NCBI GenBank assembly: GCA_003141435.1 | Contig: PLLW01000087.1 | Location: forward strand, 41,313-76,926 | Reading direction: 5' to 3' | DNA: 35,614 bases | DNA from: Ignavibacteriales bacterium | GTDB lineage: Bacteria; Bacteroidota; Ignavibacteria; Ignavibacteriales; Ignavibacteriaceae | In this document: piece after piece, positions 19,247 through 35,614 of the stretch | How the letters are laid out: each line of letters begins with the position of its first letter | Numbering within the stretch: position 1 is the stretch's first letter | Program-made: the position numbers and the translations under genes | Notes under the pieces: generated by a model | Told to the model about the DNA's origin: nothing | The model's database searches: none | The model's input: the letters and a program-made list of their open reading frames with translations, nothing else

Positions 19247-19777
19247 ATGAAAACAGTACTAGCTACTTTTTTATTTGCAGTTCTTTTGGTTACATTCAGT
19301 AATCAGTCATATTCTCAATATCAGGTCGGTAAAAATACAGGAAGCCTTAGTGTAGGTTTCGGTGGTGGCGGATTGACCGGTACAGGTGCTGTTCCGATTT
19401 CGGCAGAATTTAATTTTCTAAATTTTGAAAAGAATATTCAAGCCGGTGTTTTTGCTTCTTATTCTTCAACAAGTGAAGATTTCTATTATGGTAAATGGAA
19501 ATATACATACATAATTATAGCTGCACAGGGTAATTGGCACTTTATGCCAGGTGAAAAATTGGATCCATTTGCAGGACTATCTTTGGGATATGATATTGGT
19601 TCTGTTTCATCTACTTATAACAGTGGATACTCATATTATAATTATTCCCCAACAATAGGTGGACTCTTTTTCAGCGCACAGGCTGGATTGAACTACTGGT
19701 TCAGCGATAAATGGGCTGTTCAGGTTAGAGTTGGTTATTTCCCATATGCATCAATTGGGGTTACAGCAGGATTTTAA
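19247..19777 (+). CDS. Small outer-membrane beta-barrel protein
   Basis: The 176-residue protein has a clear signal peptide (MKTVLATFLFAVLLVTFSNQ, cleavage near YSQ). The mature chain shows alternating strands with Gly and aromatic residues (VGKNTGSLSVGFGGGG, FEKNIQAGVFASYSS, WAVQVRVGYFPYASIGVTAGF) and ends in a terminal Phe, as in outer-membrane barrels. It resembles porin-family or OmpX/OmpW-like 8-strand barrels of Bacteroidota. An AAGGAG ribosome site is six bases before the ATG at 19247. A terminator follows directly, so it is probably a monocistronic gene. The exact function is not recognised. Confidence 0.8.
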   Translation: MKTVLATFLFAVLLVTFSNQSYSQYQVGKNTGSLSVGFGGGGLTGTGAVPISAEFNFLNFEKNIQAGVFASYSSTSEDFYYGKWKYTYIIIAAQGNWHFMPGEKLDPFAGLSLGYDIGSVSSTYNSGYSYYNYSPTIGGLFFSAQAGLNYWFSDKWAVQVRVGYFPYASIGVTAGF

Positions 19778-25080: not shown

Positions 25081-28000
25081 ATGAGCTCATTAAAGAAACT
25101 GTCCCTCCTACTTCTAACAGCGCTCCCATTTTTATTAGGAAGTTCAAATCCAGTTTCCCAAGCCGACAATCCCTTTACAATTACTAATTTTACAACCTTT
25201 TCACCAGGGACAGTGGTTACGGTTAATCTTTATTCCTATAATAACACGGGTGCTGAGTTCAAGTTTGCACTTCTTAAAATTACAGATCCCTTAAGTTTTT
25301 ATTCCAGCTTAAGTTCCAGTTACAGTTTTGACATATGGGGGAAGGATAAGGAAATATTACTACGCTATACCGAGAAGGTAAAAGAATGGAGTGATTATAT
25401 TGCCGGGAACAATGCTTATGGAAAAGGAAATGTAACAGTAGGGAAGATAGATGAGGCGGGAATATATATTGTTCAGGCGATAAGGGGGGAACAAGTTGCG
25501 TATTGCGCCGTGGTCGTATCGGACAATGCAATAGTATATAAGAATTCTACCAGCCAAATTTTAGCATTTCTGACCAATGTTAAGTCCAGCGAATTCCAAA
25601 AAGAGGTTAAGTTCACATTGATTTACAATAAGGTTACCACAAGCATATTTACTGATAAAGACGGGCTTGCCTTATTCAATATTAAGGGGAGGGGAAATCA
25701 GGATTTTGAAAGCCGTCCTCTTTTAGCAGCCCAAAACGGGAAAGAAACCATCATAAGCAATCCATTTTTTTATTTTGGGGGAGGAGGCGAAAACCTGTTA
25801 ACTGCATATGTATATACAAACCAGCCAATATACAGACCGGGGCAGAACGTATATTTTAAGGCAATTCTGAGAGACAAGGAGGGGAATGAATTAAAGAATA
25901 TTGCCGGAACAGATTTTTCGATAACAGTTAAATCCCCTAAGAATAAAGAGGTATACTCACAAACACTTAAATCTGATGACTTAGGGGCAATATCCGGAAA
26001 CCTAAAACTAGAGGAAGGGGCAGACTTAGGGAATTATTCTATTATAATATCCAAAGGAGAGAGCAATTATTATGGTTCATTTGAAGTTCAAGAATATAAA
26101 AAGCCTGAATACCAGGTAAGAATAGAACTTCCTAAAAATAATTATGCAAATAAGGATGAGATAACCGGGAAGGTTAAAGCAGACTATTATTTTGGTTCAC
26201 CTGTAAATAATGGTACGGTAGTTTTGAAGATATATAAGAAATATTACTGGCGACCATGGTGGTACTGGTCAGATTATTCATGGTTTTACAAGAGTTTTGA
26301 CAAAGTTAGCCCATATAACTGGAGAGAGCTGACCTTTGTACAGCAAATGGATGGAATATTAAATAGCAAGGGAGAATATGAATTCACATATAAAGTAAAC
26401 GAGGAATTAAGTGCCGATTATGTGTATGTAATTTCAGCAGAAGTTACAGATGCATCAAGGATGGCTGTTACAGGGAATTCCAGTGTTTTTATAACCAGAG
26501 GGAGCTTCTCAATTTTTACCACACCGGACAATTATTTTACAGAAACAGGGAAGCCGGTAGTACTAAAAATAAACTCGGCAGATTTTAAGGATAATCCCGT
26601 AGAGACAGACTTCAAAATAATCATACATCATCCTTTGGATCAGCTGGACAGCCAGAGGCATATCAGGGGAGCGGAGAAAGATTCATTAACCGGAAGGACA
26701 GATAAATCCGGCAAAGCAATAATCAGTTATTATCCAAGGAACCTCAGGGCAGGTTATTATAATTACACAGTTATAGCGAGAGATGAAAAGGGAAGAGAAA
26801 TTACATCACAAAGCTCATTTTATTATGGTAAGAATGAATACTATAGCTATAACGGGCAGGGAGTTGAAATTGTAACAGATAAGGATTCCTATGAGAAAGG
26901 GGACAGTCTGACTGCATATATTTTTCTACCCAAACCCGGGACGGAACTGCTCCTTACATATGAATCAAATGAAATATTCTATTATAAAAAGATATATGCC
27001 AAAGATAGAAGCATAGTTATAAAGGAAAAGTTAGGTGAACGGTTCGCACCAAGTTTTAATATAAGTGTTACCTTTATGAAAGACGGGAAGTTCTTTAATA
27101 ACTCCAAACAGGTAGGGGTTCTGGCAAAGGATAAATTCCTGAACATATCCATTCTACCGGATAAAAAAGAATATAAGCCAGGGGACAACGCATCATATAA
27201 AGTTGTAGTAAAAGATTACAAGGGGAATCCTGTTAAAAATACGGAGATCTCATTCGGAGTGGTTGACGAGAGTATATATGCAATTAAAGAAGATGAAACA
27301 CAGGATATAAAATCATTCTTTTATGCTCCACAGTATTCATATATCCCGGCAAATAATTCCTATTCATACGCACAATCGAGCGGGCAAAGCAGGCAGATAA
27401 CGTCAATAGATAAAAATTATTTTGACCAGGGTTTAATTGAGCAAAAAGGGAATGGAAGATTATACGGCAAAATTAAAAATAAAAAAGGTAAGACTTTTGG
27501 GGGAATTAAACTTATTCTTAACAGTAATAGTAATTTTTATATAACCACAACGGATACTTTAGGGAATTATGAGTTTAGTAAAATCAAACTGGGGGAATAT
27601 TCACTTTACTTTTTTAATCCGCAGAGCTCACTTATACTTATTGACAAGGTAGGAGTTGGTAAAGAGAAGAAATTTGATGCGGTAATAGATTGGCCATTTA
27701 ATCAATTTCCTGCCGGTCAGCAAAATGGCATTGTTGGGCGGGAAGGTTTAGCAGGGGGAATAGATAATGCTATGATAGAAATGAAAGGCACTCCCCAGAT
27801 GATGGAGAAAAGCATGAACACTGCAAAAGTTGATTATAAAGAAGCAGTTGTAAGGAGTAACTTTGCGGATGCTGCATATTGGGTTCCGAATGTAAGGACA
27901 AACGATAACGGGATTGCTGAGGTTAAATTCAAGATGCCAGATAACCTGACAACATGGCGGACTTCAGTAAAAGGGATTACAATGAAAACCGACGTTGGGC

Positions 28001-30045
28001 AGGAAGTAAATAAATCGATCACCAGGAAAGATCTTTTGATAAGGATGGAGACGCCGCGCTTCTTCAGGGAGGGGGATGAGATTACGATATCCACAATTGT
28101 TCATAATTATCTTAATGAGAAGAAGAGGACGAAGATTTCATTTAAAGCGGATAATCTTAAACTTATCAGGTCGAATATTAATACTCCCGGATATTCAACC
28201 AACATGTATAATCAAGAAGAAGGATTATATGAACTTACAATTGATAAGAATACAGAGCTTCGGATTGACTGGATAGTTAGAGTTGATATTCCCATAGGGG
28301 AGGTTAAACTAAACGCGGAAGCCTTAACCAATAGTGAGTCAGATGCACTGCAACTGAAAGTACCGGTTATTCCGAAAGGAATAAGAGAAGTAAAATCAGT
28401 TACGACAGAATTCTCGGACAAAAAGGAAGAAAACCTGCAATTCAATATTCCGAAAGATGTTGATTTAAGGAGCGCAAAATTTTCATTTGCAGTAACGCCG
28501 ACGCTTGCAGGGACAATATTAAAGGCACTTGATGATCTAGCGGGATATCCTTACGGGTGCGTTGAGCAGACAATGAGCAGGTTCCTTCCGACAATAATAG
28601 CTGCCAATACATTTAAGGATCTTAATATCCCATTAAAGTCAAATACTATAACCGAGATGCCTGAAATGGTAAATGCAGGGCTGCAGAGGTTATACAGCTT
28701 CCAGCATGCCGACGGTGGATGGGGTTGGTGGACAAATGACAATACTCATCCTTACATGACTGCTTATGTAATATACGGGATGAACCTGGCAAAACAGGCA
28801 GGATATTCTTTAGATGAAGAGGTATACAGACAAGGAATAGAAAATCTAAATGCCCAATTAAATAATGTTCAACCGGATCCGACCACACTTTCCTATATGC
28901 TTTATGCTCTTTCTTCATCTAAAGATGAAAAGTATACTTCTTTTATTTCGGATAAAATAAAAGGAATGGAGGTCAATAAGTTAAACGCATATTCCCTATC
29001 ACTTAATATTATGTCATTGGTGAACATTAATGAAAACGGGCTTGCAAAGGAATATGCAGACAGGTTAATCTCAATGTCCGTCAGCAAAGGAGGTATGGTA
29101 TTCTGGAGCGGGAAGGAATGGCATTATAATTGGCAGGATGACATGGTTCAGTCGACTTCATTTGCAGTTAAAGCATTGATAAAGTCGGGAAGCCAGTCAG
29201 GGCTTATTTCCAAAGCTGTAAGCTGGCTAATCATGCAGAAGCAAGGATATTCATGGAGATCAACGCAAGAAACAGCGGCAGTTATATTTGCTTTGTCAGA
29301 TTACCTTAAGACCACAAATGAATTAAATCCAGATTATACCTACACTGTTTATCTAAATGATAAAAAAATTGTCAGTAAGAAAATTGGAACCGGGGATATT
29401 TACAGTCAGCCGGAAGAAATAAATATCAATGGACTGACAGAGAAGAATTTAATAAACGGGGACAATTATATAAAGATAATAAAAGAAGGACCCGGCAAGT
29501 TATATTTTTCTGGATTGAATCAATATTATGAATCTGAGCAATCGACGACGGTCAAAGGCAACACTTTTAATGTAAGGAGAGAATATTATCTGCTCAAACC
29601 TGAACAGAAGGAAGGGAAGATTATCTATACAAAAAATGATATTGACGGCGGGTTAAAATCAGGAGATGAACTGCTGGTTAAGACATTTGTAGAGACCAAA
29701 TCGGATAACCTGCAATACTTCATTCTTGAGGACATGCTTCCATCCGGGTTTGAGACAATTAAAGATGAAAATAAATATGAGATTGAGGGGGAGAATAATT
29801 ATCGTATTTATCCTGACTTCCGGAGATTCAGACCATGGCGGTGGTTTTATGCAGATAAAGAATACAGAGATGAGAAAGTTTCATTCTTTGTTACAAACAT
29901 TAACAAGCAGATGGAATTTTCCTATTTAATTAAAGCCCAGATACCGGGAACAGTTACAATATCCCCTGCGCAGGCATATTTGATGTATTACCCGGAAGTA
30001 AAGGGAAACAGTGAATGGGTAGAAATTAAAACCACGGACAAGTGA
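25081..30045 (+). CDS. Periplasmic alpha-2-macroglobulin family protein
   Basis: The 1654-residue protein resembles bacterial alpha-2-macroglobulins, which trap proteases that enter the periplasm. A signal peptide (about 27 residues) has no lipobox Cys, unlike most bacterial members. MG2 carries YRPG at 251-254. The internal thioester motif CVEQ is at residues 1160-1163 (YPYGCVEQTMSRF), with the alpha-alpha-toroid TED around it (DGGWGWWTNDN). A probable bait region lies between residue 733 and about 925. It contains a carboxypeptidase-regulatory-like domain at about 790-855 (GRLYGKIKNKKGKTFGG, then SKIKLGEYSL). A GGAG ribosome site is six bases before the ATG. The usual partner pbpC is not next to it; the next gene is gpsA in opposite orientation. 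Confidence 0.9.
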   Translation: MSSLKKLSLLLLTALPFLLGSSNPVSQADNPFTITNFTTFSPGTVVTVNLYSYNNTGAEFKFALLKITDPLSFYSSLSSSYSFDIWGKDKEILLRYTEKVKEWSDYIAGNNAYGKGNVTVGKIDEAGIYIVQAIRGEQVAYCAVVVSDNAIVYKNSTSQILAFLTNVKSSEFQKEVKFTLIYNKVTTSIFTDKDGLALFNIKGRGNQDFESRPLLAAQNGKETIISNPFFYFGGGGENLLTAYVYTNQPIYRPGQNVYFKAILRDKEGNELKNIAGTDFSITVKSPKNKEVYSQTLKSDDLGAISGNLKLEEGADLGNYSIIISKGESNYYGSFEVQEYKKPEYQVRIELPKNNYANKDEITGKVKADYYFGSPVNNGTVVLKIYKKYYWRPWWYWSDYSWFYKSFDKVSPYNWRELTFVQQMDGILNSKGEYEFTYKVNEELSADYVYVISAEVTDASRMAVTGNSSVFITRGSFSIFTTPDNYFTETGKPVVLKINSADFKDNPVETDFKIIIHHPLDQLDSQRHIRGAEKDSLTGRTDKSGKAIISYYPRNLRAGYYNYTVIARDEKGREITSQSSFYYGKNEYYSYNGQGVEIVTDKDSYEKGDSLTAYIFLPKPGTELLLTYESNEIFYYKKIYAKDRSIVIKEKLGERFAPSFNISVTFMKDGKFFNNSKQVGVLAKDKFLNISILPDKKEYKPGDNASYKVVVKDYKGNPVKNTEISFGVVDESIYAIKEDETQDIKSFFYAPQYSYIPANNSYSYAQSSGQSRQITSIDKNYFDQGLIEQKGNGRLYGKIKNKKGKTFGGIKLILNSNSNFYITTTDTLGNYEFSKIKLGEYSLYFFNPQSSLILIDKVGVGKEKKFDAVIDWPFNQFPAGQQNGIVGREGLAGGIDNAMIEMKGTPQMMEKSMNTAKVDYKEAVVRSNFADAAYWVPNVRTNDNGIAEVKFKMPDNLTTWRTSVKGITMKTDVGQEVNKSITRKDLLIRMETPRFFREGDEITISTIVHNYLNEKKRTKISFKADNLKLIRSNINTPGYSTNMYNQEEGLYELTIDKNTELRIDWIVRVDIPIGEVKLNAEALTNSESDALQLKVPVIPKGIREVKSVTTEFSDKKEENLQFNIPKDVDLRSAKFSFAVTPTLAGTILKALDDLAGYPYGCVEQTMSRFLPTIIAANTFKDLNIPLKSNTITEMPEMVNAGLQRLYSFQHADGGWGWWTNDNTHPYMTAYVIYGMNLAKQAGYSLDEEVYRQGIENLNAQLNNVQPDPTTLSYMLYALSSSKDEKYTSFISDKIKGMEVNKLNAYSLSLNIMSLVNINENGLAKEYADRLISMSVSKGGMVFWSGKEWHYNWQDDMVQSTSFAVKALIKSGSQSGLISKAVSWLIMQKQGYSWRSTQETAAVIFALSDYLKTTNELNPDYTYTVYLNDKKIVSKKIGTGDIYSQPEEININGLTEKNLINGDNYIKIIKEGPGKLYFSGLNQYYESEQSTTVKGNTFNVRREYYLLKPEQKEGKIIYTKNDIDGGLKSGDELLVKTFVETKSDNLQYFILEDMLPSGFETIKDENKYEIEGENNYRIYPDFRRFRPWRWFYADKEYRDEKVSFFVTNINKQMEFSYLIKAQIPGTVTISPAQAYLMYYPEVKGNSEWVEIKTTDK

Positions 30046-32296: not shown

Positions 32297-35200
32297 TTAA
32301 TTAATATTTATTTTTCCGCTTCTATCAGAATATCGTCCTTTTGAATCAGACAATCTTATTAAAATATTTCCTTTAATACCTTGAGGAATTCCATTCCAGG
32401 TATAACTATTTGTTTTTCTAAAATCATGTGGAATATTATCCGCTATTAAATTCCAGGATTTACCATTATCACTGGAGTATTCAATCCTAACAGTGGAAAT
32501 TTTATTACTTCCTTTCCACGAAATATTCATATCGGAGCCGGACGGATAGAAGGTGTTTCCAGATGGCTGAACTATCTTCAAACCAGGTAAAACATTTAGG
32601 TTGAAATAGAGGTCACTCATATCTGAAACTGTCGGGTCGCTTGCGTCTGTTATTCTAATACGCGCGAGTGTGGACGGAAGTACATTACCGATTATCCATC
32701 TAAAGGCACCAGTAGAAGGATAATTAGTTACAAGAGAAGTCCAGGTTTGTCCATTATCTTCAGATAATTCTATATTGACATTATTTATCTTAGTAGAAAC
32801 CCACTTAATTACAGTATCTGGATTAATACTATGATTAATATACTCCCCTCCATTAGGGAAGGTTACTCTTAAAACTTTTTCAGAGTGTATAGAGAAGAAA
32901 CCGGATTGTGCCGAAGGAGATCCAGTTTCTAACGCGCTTATTTTTATCATACAAAGATCAGATCTGCGAGGCATAGGAGGGACATACCAATTTAAAAGTC
33001 CGTTACTTGGAATTCTTGCGGCGATAGTTGACCAGTTAGCTCCTCCATCAATAGTGACAATGATATTTACACTGTCGATGTTGGTGGAAGTCCATCTTAT
33101 CACTTGATAAGTAGAATCTAGCCAGTTTTCTCCACCCACAGGAGCCACCATATTAATTGTTCTAAAGGGCTGGGGGGAAATAGTAAATACTCCATCGCTG
33201 TAAGCCATAGGGGAGCCAGTAAGAGCCTCACTGATTCTGATCCTATATAGAGTAGAAGGAATTGAGAAAGTTGTAACGTAACTACCATTGCTAGGGGTGG
33301 TATTCACCAAAGTATACCAAGAAGAATCTTGAAGACCATTAGTAATGGTATATTCAATTTTAACATTTTCAATTCCGGTAGAGGTCCATAGTATATTGAC
33401 AGGGGAACCTGCTTGATAAACATCTCCTGCTTTAGGGGATTGAACAGAAATAGTTGCTAAAGGTTTTATACTAAAGACCTGGCTGCTAACATCGGAAGGA
33501 ACGCCATCAGCAGCATCACTGACCCTAACCTTGCACTGTGTTGAATTTACGTTTGGCAGACTCCACGCGTAAGAACCTGAACCGGGTAAATTATTTGCAA
33601 TTATAGTCCAATCAGTTCCATTATCAGAGGTTAATTCTATTTTAATAGAATTTATAGCAGTTCCATTCCAGGTTATGTTATGTGTTGTACCTGCCTGCCA
33701 CGATTCTCCGCCAACAGGAGAAGTAAGTTTTATGGATTGAACAATAAGGTTTGTAATGGTAAAATTATTATTAGAAATACCATACGGCTGACCGGTGCCG
33801 TCAGCATTACTGATTTTTATCCTGCATAGAGAAGAATTTACACTTGGAATATTTTGCCATACATATTGACCGATACTTGGAGTAGAAGCGATAATTAAAC
33901 TCCAGTCAGCCCCATTATCAGTAGTGAATTGAATTTTAACATTTGCTACATTTGTAGATGTCCATGAGATATTTGTATTAGAACCTGCCTGCAGAGTTTC
34001 ACCTCCATTGGGGGAAAGAACAGTAATATCCGGAGGAGGAGCTATTGTAAATGTAGCTGTGCTTTGATTAACGGGGAATCCATTAACTGCGTCAGTAATC
34101 CTAATCCTGCAGTTTGATGAAGGAGTATTAGGAACCTGAGTCCATGAATAATAACCTGTACTTGGAATATTTGCGACAACGGAATTCCAGTTGAGTCCAT
34201 TATTTGTAGTATAATCAATATTAACAGCGGTAACACCAGTGCTGCCCCAACTTATTACCTGAGTAGTTCCTGCCTGCCATATTTCGCCACCGTTAGGACT
34301 TTTGACAGAAATATCCCTTGGGATATTATTATAAATAACAAAAGTGCTGTCAGAGATAGCGAAAGGGGCACCTACATCTGCGTCACTAATTTTTACTCTG
34401 CATAACGAAGAGTTCTGGGAAGGGACCGGAGACCAGAGATAAGATCCGTTATTCGGGGTGCTTTGAACAATAGACAACCAGTTAGAACCATTATTGGTAG
34501 TATATTCTATTTTAATATTGGCAATTGTAAGAGGGAAATAAGGAGAACTCTTTAATTTTATGTTTGATTTGCCGCCGCCTATGATTTTTCCTAATGCATT
34601 CCATCTAATAATTTGGCTTGAGCCGGACATCCAGTTCTCACCGCCATCGGGGGAAATTATTTTAAGAGCAGGCTGCGGGGAAATAGTAAAAACGCTATCG
34701 CTAGCATCCGACGGATAACCGTCTGAAGCATCAGAGATTCTTACTCTTGCATTAGTAGAAGGTACATTCGGGAGAGCGCTCCACAGGAAATATCCAACGC
34801 TAGGGGTGCTGTTTGTAATAGTACTCCAGGTTGATCCATTATTTAATGTATATTCAATTTTAACATTACTAACCTGAGAGCTATACCATGTAATCGGCTG
34901 GCTTGAATTTTCATTCCAATTTTCCCCACCATTTGGGCTTAAGACTTGAATAACCTGAGGAGAAGTAATTGAAAAAACTGATTTACTTTTATCGGTAACC
35001 GTAGGATCTGAAACATCAGTAATTCTTAATAAACATTGGGTAGATGGGGAATTAGGTATTGGATTCCACACATAATAGTTGCTGTCTGCCGGGTAAGTAA
35101 GAACAACAGGATTCCAGGTTGTACCGTTGTTTAAGGAGAATTCAATTTTTATACTTGTGATTCCGCTAGAGACCCATTCTATTCTGAAGGAGTCATTTAC

Positions 35201-35614
35201 ATAAAGAACTTCGCCACCGTTTGGTTTTGAAAGGGCGAGAGTTTTTGCCCCGGTGTTAAATACGTTAAAGAAACCTGTGCTAATACCGATAGCTGCTTTA
35301 TCATCAGTCGTTATTCTTATCATTCCCTGAGAAGTCGGCAGGTTTGGAATTGGATACCACAGGTAGGCACCGTTATTCACAACATTGTCTGCAAGTACTA
35401 TCCAGGTTGCACCATCATTAGTGGAGAATTCAATCTTAACTGTAGAAGTTGAGTTACTTGACCACTGAATAGTGGTGGTTGATGCCACTTTTAAGGAATC
35501 ACCATTTTTAGGTGAAGTAACTGTCAAAGTTACATTACCCGAAGTTGTACCGTTACTTGTTCCGACAACTGTTGTATTATCTTTACAACTGTGAATCAGA
35601 AACGACAGCAAAAG
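32297..35614 (-). CDS. Ig-like-repeat surface lipoprotein, 5' end cut by window edge
   Basis: About 1105 residues are visible, ending at TAA 32297-32299. The start lies just outside: the visible beginning (LSFLIHSCKDNTTV) is the tail of a lipoprotein signal, with lipobox-like IHSC and Cys about nine residues in. The TTG at 35609-35611 is inside the signal, so it is not the true start. The rest is eleven related domains of about 95-100 residues. Most share SPNGGE near the beginning, 'W-ST' and 'VKIEY-T-NG--W' in the middle, and 'RI-ISDA---G-P' near the end. This matches the Ser/Thr-rich Kre9/KNH-like domains common in Bacteroidota and Ignavibacteria secreted proteins. It is probably a surface adhesin or scaffold anchored by lipid. 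No C-terminal secretion domain is evident. Confidence 0.85.
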   Translation of the reverse strand, partial: LLLSFLIHSCKDNTTVVGTSNGTTSGNVTLTVTSPKNGDSLKVASTTTIQWSSNSTSTVKIEFSTNDGATWIVLADNVVNNGAYLWYPIPNLPTSQGMIRITTDDKAAIGISTGFFNVFNTGAKTLALSKPNGGEVLYVNDSFRIEWVSSGITSIKIEFSLNNGTTWNPVVLTYPADSNYYVWNPIPNSPSTQCLLRITDVSDPTVTDKSKSVFSITSPQVIQVLSPNGGENWNENSSQPITWYSSQVSNVKIEYTLNNGSTWSTITNSTPSVGYFLWSALPNVPSTNARVRISDASDGYPSDASDSVFTISPQPALKIISPDGGENWMSGSSQIIRWNALGKIIGGGKSNIKLKSSPYFPLTIANIKIEYTTNNGSNWLSIVQSTPNNGSYLWSPVPSQNSSLCRVKISDADVGAPFAISDSTFVIYNNIPRDISVKSPNGGEIWQAGTTQVISWGSTGVTAVNIDYTTNNGLNWNSVVANIPSTGYYSWTQVPNTPSSNCRIRITDAVNGFPVNQSTATFTIAPPPDITVLSPNGGETLQAGSNTNISWTSTNVANVKIQFTTDNGADWSLIIASTPSIGQYVWQNIPSVNSSLCRIKISNADGTGQPYGISNNNFTITNLIVQSIKLTSPVGGESWQAGTTHNITWNGTAINSIKIELTSDNGTDWTIIANNLPGSGSYAWSLPNVNSTQCKVRVSDAADGVPSDVSSQVFSIKPLATISVQSPKAGDVYQAGSPVNILWTSTGIENVKIEYTITNGLQDSSWYTLVNTTPSNGSYVTTFSIPSTLYRIRISEALTGSPMAYSDGVFTISPQPFRTINMVAPVGGENWLDSTYQVIRWTSTNIDSVNIIVTIDGGANWSTIAARIPSNGLLNWYVPPMPRRSDLCMIKISALETGSPSAQSGFFSIHSEKVLRVTFPNGGEYINHSINPDTVIKWVSTKINNVNIELSEDNGQTWTSLVTNYPSTGAFRWIIGNVLPSTLARIRITDASDPTVSDMSDLYFNLNVLPGLKIVQPSGNTFYPSGSDMNISWKGSNKISTVRIEYSSDNGKSWNLIADNIPHDFRKTNSYTWNGIPQGIKGNILIRLSDSKGRYSDRSGKININ
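32300..35533 (-). repeat. Eleven tandem Ig-like protein repeats
   Basis: The coding sequence holds eleven diverged copies of about 95-100 codons, each with the pattern SPNGGE, then W-S-T, then IEY-T-NG, then a final 'F-I' strand. The copies differ at the DNA level (roughly the same motif but different codons), so they are old duplications and not recent tandem repeats. The fourth copy carries a 22- to 24-codon insertion at about 34520-34591. Confidence 0.8.

Follow-up and report, generated by a model that had tools for sequence, protein, structure and literature searches.

Bacterial alpha-2-macroglobulins (A2Ms) were reportedly studied by Budd et al. in 2004, and the bait region of human A2M is approximately 40 amino acids long. 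Bacterial as well as human A2M baits are described as largely disordered in PMC4498604. According to PMC9352918, the segment behind the bait threads a channel in A2M, and a cut in the bait allows this segment to retract, upon which the molecule collapses. For the SusC/RagA-type transporters, PMC7782687 describes the NTE of SusC as an Ig-like domain of seven strands, behind which a flexible Ton box lies. Mutations reported there showed that Bt1763 requires its Ton box, DEVVVTG.

The stretch of DNA analyzed here (35,614 nucleotides from an Ignavibacteriales genome, referred to as the window) carries an A2M gene, the features of which are listed in Table 1. When its own genome was searched with the 1654-residue product, the gene itself was the sole match (E 0.001). 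MG2, MG3, A2M_BRD, A2M, TED_complement, and bMG10 all exceeded their Pfam cut-offs, so that the domain set of the A2M superfamily is present; the A2M domain was located at residues 932-1019 (3.9e-19) and TED_complement at residues 1148-1241 (2.3e-19). CD109 was the best sequence match in the PDB, and A2M and C3 were the top structural matches of an AlphaFold model of residues 595-1030. The thioester that the first-pass annotation had called intact was confirmed as a motif: the cysteine of GCVEQ is residue 1160, and the motif is kept in each of the 15 sequences that made up the initial set of orthologs. A match to the NCBIfam model SCO2321 (23 of 300 bits) was disregarded.

Residues 1-40 do not contain a cysteine, and thus the lipobox by which Type I A2Ms are defined is lacking, in agreement with the plain signal-like N-terminus claimed before. 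Cysteine was likewise absent from residues 1-40 of the 12 other proteins in the initial set of relatives whose sequence extends to the N-terminus (the start codon of L011 being uncertain). The protein is probably secreted and probably resides in the periplasm. The earlier statement that pbpC was not seen also held: BiPBP_C, the C-terminal domain of PbpC, had no match in the genome, which is 93% complete, in a search that a PbpC without BiPBP_C would escape and the controls of which included E. coli and Caulobacter, both positive. An RlpA-like DPBB protein is encoded upstream of the A2M gene and gpsA and plsY homologs downstream, all on the opposite strand, and the window lies near dnaA/dnaN/gyrBA. 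Two further frames were noted in the window. The frame at 32297-35611 on the minus strand, which stops 3 bases short of the window end, matched the Kre9/KNH and Reelin-subrepeat families and probably encodes a large secreted protein; the 176-residue frame at 19247-19777 on the plus strand yielded zero Pfam matches at E 0.001.

Table 1. Features of the A2M gene, with positions in the window and residues of the product in parentheses
Feature	Position	Strand	Basis or remark
Alpha-2-macroglobulin (A2M) gene	25081..30045	+	open from ATG, 1654 aa
Signal-peptide-like N-terminus without lipobox Cys (1-28)	25081..25164	+	end approximate; read from sequence by eye
MG2 domain (242-336)	25804..26088	+	Pfam 1e-25
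A2M_BRD domain (595-734), ending in pre-bait DESIYAI strand	26863..27282	+	Pfam 4.7e-13; AlphaFold
Bait region (736-924), 189 aa	27286..27852	+	alignment anchors VVDESIYAI and RSNFADAAYW
First bait linker (736-789), Tyr/Ser/Gln-rich	27286..27447	+	pLDDT <50 at 762-774
CarboxypepD_reg / transporter-NTE-like beta-sandwich (790-872)	27448..27696	+	AlphaFold pLDDT 94; profile matches
Second bait linker (873-924); Ton-box- or plug-like pieces sit here in some relatives	27697..27852	+	877-919 almost all pLDDT <50
Conserved post-bait strand RSNFADAAYW (925-934), alpha'NT counterpart	27853..27882	+	alignment; role by analogy with PMC9352918
Thioester motif CVEQ (1160-1163)	28558..28569	+	sequence, alignment
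bMG10 domain (1496-1639)	29566..29997	+	Pfam 3.3e-24

The bait was modeled with AlphaFold in its context, using an alignment of 44 sequences. pLDDT fell below 50 at residues 762-774, 877-904, and 906-919, and the strands of a beta-sandwich were placed within residues 792-859. Modeled alone, residues 790-872 (83 amino acids) gave seven strands with a mean pLDDT of 94.2 and a pTM of 0.83. As modeled, this part of the bait is a separate folded domain of the transthyretin/CarboxypepD_reg kind. Compared with solved structures, it matched carboxypeptidase D (5aq0) with Z 9.5 over 78 residues and the SusC NTE (9hfj) with Z 8.6 over 76 residues, among many others; the fold is a common one, with Z of at least 8 in 72 of 996 chains. 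The carboxypeptidase-regulatory-like domain that had been proposed inside the bait is therefore borne out by the structure prediction. The first-pass annotation had named a prediction without a separate folded domain in this stretch as the finding that would speak against it; that outcome did not occur, because residues 790-872 are confidently predicted as one. The Met-rich segment also reported there amounts to a short piece containing five Met at residues 898-912.

Relatives were first surveyed in 59 genomes including that of the window. An A2M match was obtained in 24 of them, and the window gene and 14 loci (L002-L015) were ortholog-like. The starts of the two bait anchors were 194-211 residues apart in the window protein and in the 13 ortholog-like loci spanning the bait (L010 does not contain the region); the frames L010 and L158 yielded no bait. 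Later sampling drew loci or stretches from many of the 75 genomes that gave a match. An alignment of 88 A2Ms was prepared from the window protein, 78 frames from 80 named loci, and 9 further loci. Baits of 185-244 residues were found in Ignavibacteria records and in some labeled Bacteroidetes, Flexithrix, or Chitinophagales, and baits of 41-109 residues in Acidobacteria, most Armatimonadetes, Chloroflexi, one Chlorobiota record, and others. Baits of 140-176 residues with a low-complexity look occurred in a planctomycete, omnitrophote, and alphaproteobacterial set. In a tree computed from the sequence behind the bait, the window protein fell into a clade of 21 rows with a sister clade of 11 rows, each supported at 100/100 and joined at 92/88. 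Because all 32 rows share a long bait, the domain was probably already present in their common ancestor. The domain aligns through the relatives, so the insertion noted in the first pass is present but is not peculiar to the window gene. L047, on a contig labeled Thalassovita (Alphaproteobacteria), encodes an A2M clustering with those of Flexithrix and of a Chitinophagales genome (100/100), and this contig is probably mis-binned.

A second kind of A2M in Bacteroidota comprises approximately 1900-2200 residues and is marked by a DASL or similar motif in front of the bait. Such large-type A2Ms were matched in 104 of the 120 genomes of family f27 and in 76 of 149 of family f30. The N-termini of 24 transporters (NTE, Ton box, and plug), with no A2M included, served to build an HMM, which was used to search 148 unique A2M frames. 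It gave nothing below 0.1 on reversed sequences and replaced a three-sequence HMM, the reversed control of which had produced one hit (0.009). The best bait match of the transporter HMM was L144 (7.8e-46). The same bait matched the NCBI SusC/RagA model TIGR04056 with 1e-63 over model positions 3-219 of 981, the 216 bits being set against a whole-protein cut-off of 368, and the bait of L330 matched RagA (6sli) with 1.2e-41. In eight Pfam-scanned proteins, picked because the cassette was already evident, CarbopepD_reg_2 and Plug exceeded the Pfam cut-offs beside A2M in six, and Plug and A2M in the other two. The Ton boxes of these baits, LEEVVVTGYG for example, are of the same kind as the required box of Bt1763. 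Overall, the transporter likeness is far more evident in large-type than in window-type baits.

Several proteins deserve separate mention. L145, from a genome in the same family as that of the window, encodes a large-type A2M with the bait LDEVIVVSERPLIEKSSTNTTRIVSSDEI...LPVRGGRVDEVGYIVEGI, which by eye resembles the Ton-box region of Ignavibacteria transporters, e.g. L168. The 2076-residue A2M of L205 contains, near its N-terminus, a segment resembling the C-terminal half of a transporter plug, at residues 272-361 and thus outside the bait; it reads YIVDGQPV...LYGNKALNGAIHVITK (E 3.4e-8). In f27, the baits of L358, L373, L376-L379, L383, L384, L388, L392, and L394 (the last together with a box) carry a plug piece and no NTE, so that lineages keep opposite ends of the cassette.

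Baits were then counted in a pooled set of 297 unique sequences, which were merged only if identical: 36 of the window type, 182 of the DASL type, 19 of the DAGV type, 56 from other phyla, and 4 divergent ones. The transporter HMM matched 23 of the 36 window-type baits, and the remaining 13 had no recognized part. For the DASL type, 56 of 182 baits were matched by the HMM, 64 contained a strict Ton box, and 86 had any recognized NTE, box, or plug. Neither the HMM nor the Ton-box test was positive for any of the 56 other-phyla, 19 DAGV-type, and 4 divergent baits, or for any of 2,970 shuffled baits. Outside the baits, the strict Ton box was found 0 times in 157,770 residues of the DASL type, once in 50,823 residues of the window type, and once in 87,339 residues from other phyla, where "outside" means, for loci added from f27 and f30, the flanks fetched rather than whole proteins. 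A chance origin of the Ton-box match was rejected on the basis of the shuffled baits and the 157,770 residues outside DASL-type baits. Transporter-HMM matches outside the bait were seen in 0 of 36 window-type, 1 of 182 large-type, and 6 of 56 other-phyla proteins, in the last case near the N-terminus. The first two counts led us to reject an accretion of CarboxypepD_reg domains anywhere in the protein for the window and large types. L062, L076, L078, L096, L098, and L099, all A2Ms from other phyla, have CarboxypepD_reg-like domains, some in tandem, within their first 300 residues and not in the bait.

Moreover, 89 baits (70 of the DASL type and 19 of the window type) were compared by blast with 72 transporter frames, which were cut by the locus ends and covered the barrels only in part. 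All 1,674 matching pieces hit the N-terminal module, which made up 22,510 of the 48,844 residues searched; the 26,334 residues beyond it drew none, and random transporter fragments were rejected as the source of the baits. The strict Ton-box motif had been defined after inspection of the first 33 large-type baits, 15 of which contained it; 49 of 149 did so in the set added later. For f27 and f30, 160 loci were read among the matches and gave 157 unique baits, those of the same family not being independent, and both queries used for adding these loci were themselves box-bearing. Boxes were present in 15 of the 30 best matches from f27 versus 6 of the 50 other unique baits; no such slope was apparent for f30 (13 of the 30 best matches versus 21 of the 47 others).

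When 49 transporter N-termini and 14 bait cassettes were placed in one tree, four changes between transporter and bait labels were needed. Three of these were forced by well-supported branches, and the bootstrap was not fully settled. The cassette of L148 clustered with transporters from the window's genome and from a related one (99/97), on a long branch that was flagged as unsure; that of L335 joined one transporter from its own genome plus one other (97/95). Gains or losses are both possible in principle, and captures are the simplest reading of the label changes. With four changes, three of them forced, the tree did not favor one vertical origin for all cassettes, this judgment being drawn from 49 sampled transporters with the unsettled bootstrap and the long L148 branch. 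As far as this one tree goes, baits have probably captured transporter modules repeatedly.

On balance, we lean toward the window protein being a periplasmic, thioester-dependent protease trap with a transporter-derived bait, which possibly serves as an integrated decoy. By analogy with described A2Ms, it would trap proteases as follows. The bait would be built round a domain most likely descended from the N-terminal module of a TonB-dependent transporter (NTE, Ton box, and plug), of which the window gene would have been left with the NTE-like domain alone, other lineages keeping the Ton box, the plug, or all three. A protease would cleave one of the two flexible linkers flanking the folded domain, and either cut should suffice. 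Once the bait is broken, the RSNFADAAYW strand would slip out of its channel, the molecule would collapse, and the exposed CVEQ thioester would tie down the protease. The anatomy of the window protein fits such a channel mechanism because linkers flank a folded domain that is followed by a conserved strand and then by the thioester motif. As an integrated decoy, the bait would mimic the periplasmic face of abundant outer-membrane proteins and be cut in their stead, an idea that would explain why the baits draw on the periplasmic face exclusively and why captures apparently recurred. We put forward the decoy role tentatively. The window's genome has TonB_C at 4 places and 16 Plug matches (15 above the cut-off), which favors the overall reading. 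It is weakened by the lack of a strict Ton box in all 36 window-type baits, by the 13 of these and the 96 of 182 large-type baits without any recognized part, and by the sub-threshold plug pieces of L148 and L051. It is also conceivable, if doubtful, that Bacteroidota A2M traps repeatedly capture and keep the transporter N-terminal module, as a decoy or as a handle by which TonB would hold or fire the trap, with the window gene as a late, reduced member.

The bait might instead be a permissive site that tolerates nearly any soluble insert, which would be kept or would decay with no selection on what it is. Because the genomes in question contain many transporter genes, the soluble N-terminal module of these proteins would be a likely accidental donor; 32-67 CarboxypepD_reg_2 matches per genome were counted in six genomes. 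Different lineages keep different pieces: the 182 large-type baits comprise 4 with NTE only, 13 with NTE and box, 39 with box only, 13 with plug only, 5 with NTE and plug, 3 with box and plug, 9 with all three, and 96 with none. Unselected filling would explain this patchwork, which is equally compatible with a decoy, and filling is also favored by residues 801-900 being the least conserved hundred of the protein, with 14-37% identity to the window protein in 13 relatives as opposed to mostly 25-60% elsewhere. However, the 39 box-only baits recur amid otherwise diverged sequence (as seen in an alignment of 19 baits), the cassette tree has at least three transporter/bait changes, and a long bait with the domain persists throughout the window clade. 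Filling without selection may have happened; like the decoy role, to which we give about the same odds, it is less likely than not.

Another explanation would be that the window-type domain came from a separate CarboxypepD_reg protein, its likeness to transporter cassettes being a coincidence of position. When the family profile of the window insert was searched against the PDB, NOMO2 (3e-15) and scaffoldins ranked ahead of SusC (0.6), and SdrD_B was the top Pfam match of the insert; both results favor this explanation, as do the 6 of 56 other-phyla A2Ms with CarboxypepD_reg-like domains at the N-terminus. The window domain scored 19.3 of the 32.3 bits that Pfam requires for CarboxypepD_reg and 26.2 of the 29.7 bits for SdrD_B, and Pfam scans of the protein and of the bait gave no Plug match. 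Among six relatives' baits scanned, the CarboxypepD_reg cut-off (PF13620/PF13715) was reached in L051, L043, L118, and L049 and was missed in L052 and L048. In contrast to what a separate origin would predict, plug pieces occur directly behind the same domain, at the same place, in L148, L051, and L043, which belong to the sister clade. The L148 bait shows CarboxypepD_reg (4.3e-15) and then a Plug piece (0.0038, below the Pfam cut-off) containing INIRGGRTDGSQIIIDGV. The plug piece of L051 likewise falls under the cut-off, and those of L051 and L043 are shorter than that of L148. The transporter HMM matched L148 with 1e-24, L051 with 2.2e-10 over HMM positions 3-145, and L043 with 2.6e-8 and 8.6e-5. 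These pieces, invisible from one sequence, are the best clue to the identity of the domain. For the window protein itself, the HMM gave an E of 8.9e-4 with the whole protein and of 8.5e-5 with the bait alone. A single hhalign comparison of the window-type insert profile with the transporter profile reached 97.5% (P 8e-12), versus 0.3-0.4% for two of A2M's own domains used as controls. Because the PDB profile search prefers NOMO2 over SusC and the fold is common, the window domain by itself does not single out transporters, and its transporter origin rests mainly on the relatives. A separate source appears rather unlikely to us, and a transporter origin of the window's own bait domain is quite likely as judged from these comparisons.

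If a Ton box in the bait bound TonB, the trap might be tethered to the energized inner membrane, or TonB might pull the bait out of its channel and so fire the trap without a cut. Exact DEVVVTG is present in some baits, e.g. that of L143, and is the box for which the mutation in Bt1763 is described in PMC7782687; box-bearing baits look flexible from their sequence, and TonB is present in the window's genome. The strict motif, however, was found in 0 of 36 window-type baits including that of the window, so that docking to TonB does not explain the window gene, and 18 of 182 large-type baits keep the plug without a box. Such docking is improbable. The alternative offered in the first-pass annotation, a ligand-binding or anchoring domain that localizes the protein, is most improbable. 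In its favor, adhesin and pilin domains are among those with a similar fold. However, activation would release a domain lying between the cut sites or leave it attached to one half only, which makes this an odd position for an anchor; the Pfam scan of the window A2M revealed no C-terminal sorting domain, and no other finding supported anchoring. The same annotation also proposed that the domain may change the range of target proteases.

We thus return to the protease trap with a transporter-derived bait. Taken alone, the gene in the window represents only a modest variant, but what recurs across many Bacteroidota genomes is unexpected and lies far beyond the shuffle and flank controls. Whereas baits have been described as largely disordered, many Bacteroidota A2M baits are filled with recognizable transporter modules, which were probably taken more than once. 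No prior publication on transporter-derived A2M baits of Bacteroidota was found in the open-access literature searched with macroglobulin plus transporter or phylum terms. Baits of this kind would be a first indication of what these bacterial A2Ms protect, or of what holds them. They would also allow a new kind of test of what the SusC NTE does, a function described as unknown in PMC7782687.

Compared with known systems, the window protein shares with the Type I bacterial A2Ms (ECAM/YfhM and Sa-A2M) the CXEQ thioester, the array of MG domains, and a bait placed before the A2M/TED half. It differs from them in the lack of a lipobox cysteine, the lack of a PbpC domain match in the genome, and the predicted folded domain in the bait. 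With the Type II protein MagD it has in common that it is a bacterial A2M with a bait and no lipobox. MagD, however, as described in PMC5764988, has no thioester and belongs to a six-gene operon, whereas the thioester motif of the window protein is intact and its neighbors lie on the other strand. Domain order and thioester are shared with human A2M, A2ML1, and CD109, the baits of which are short and unstructured, unlike that of the window protein. From the SusC/RagA-type transporters (NTE PF13715, Ton box, and Plug PF07715) the baits differ in lacking the barrel, and the window gene has the NTE-like domain only; the cassette itself is shared by these transporters and by baits in many relatives, some of which have an almost complete series of NTE, box, and plug.
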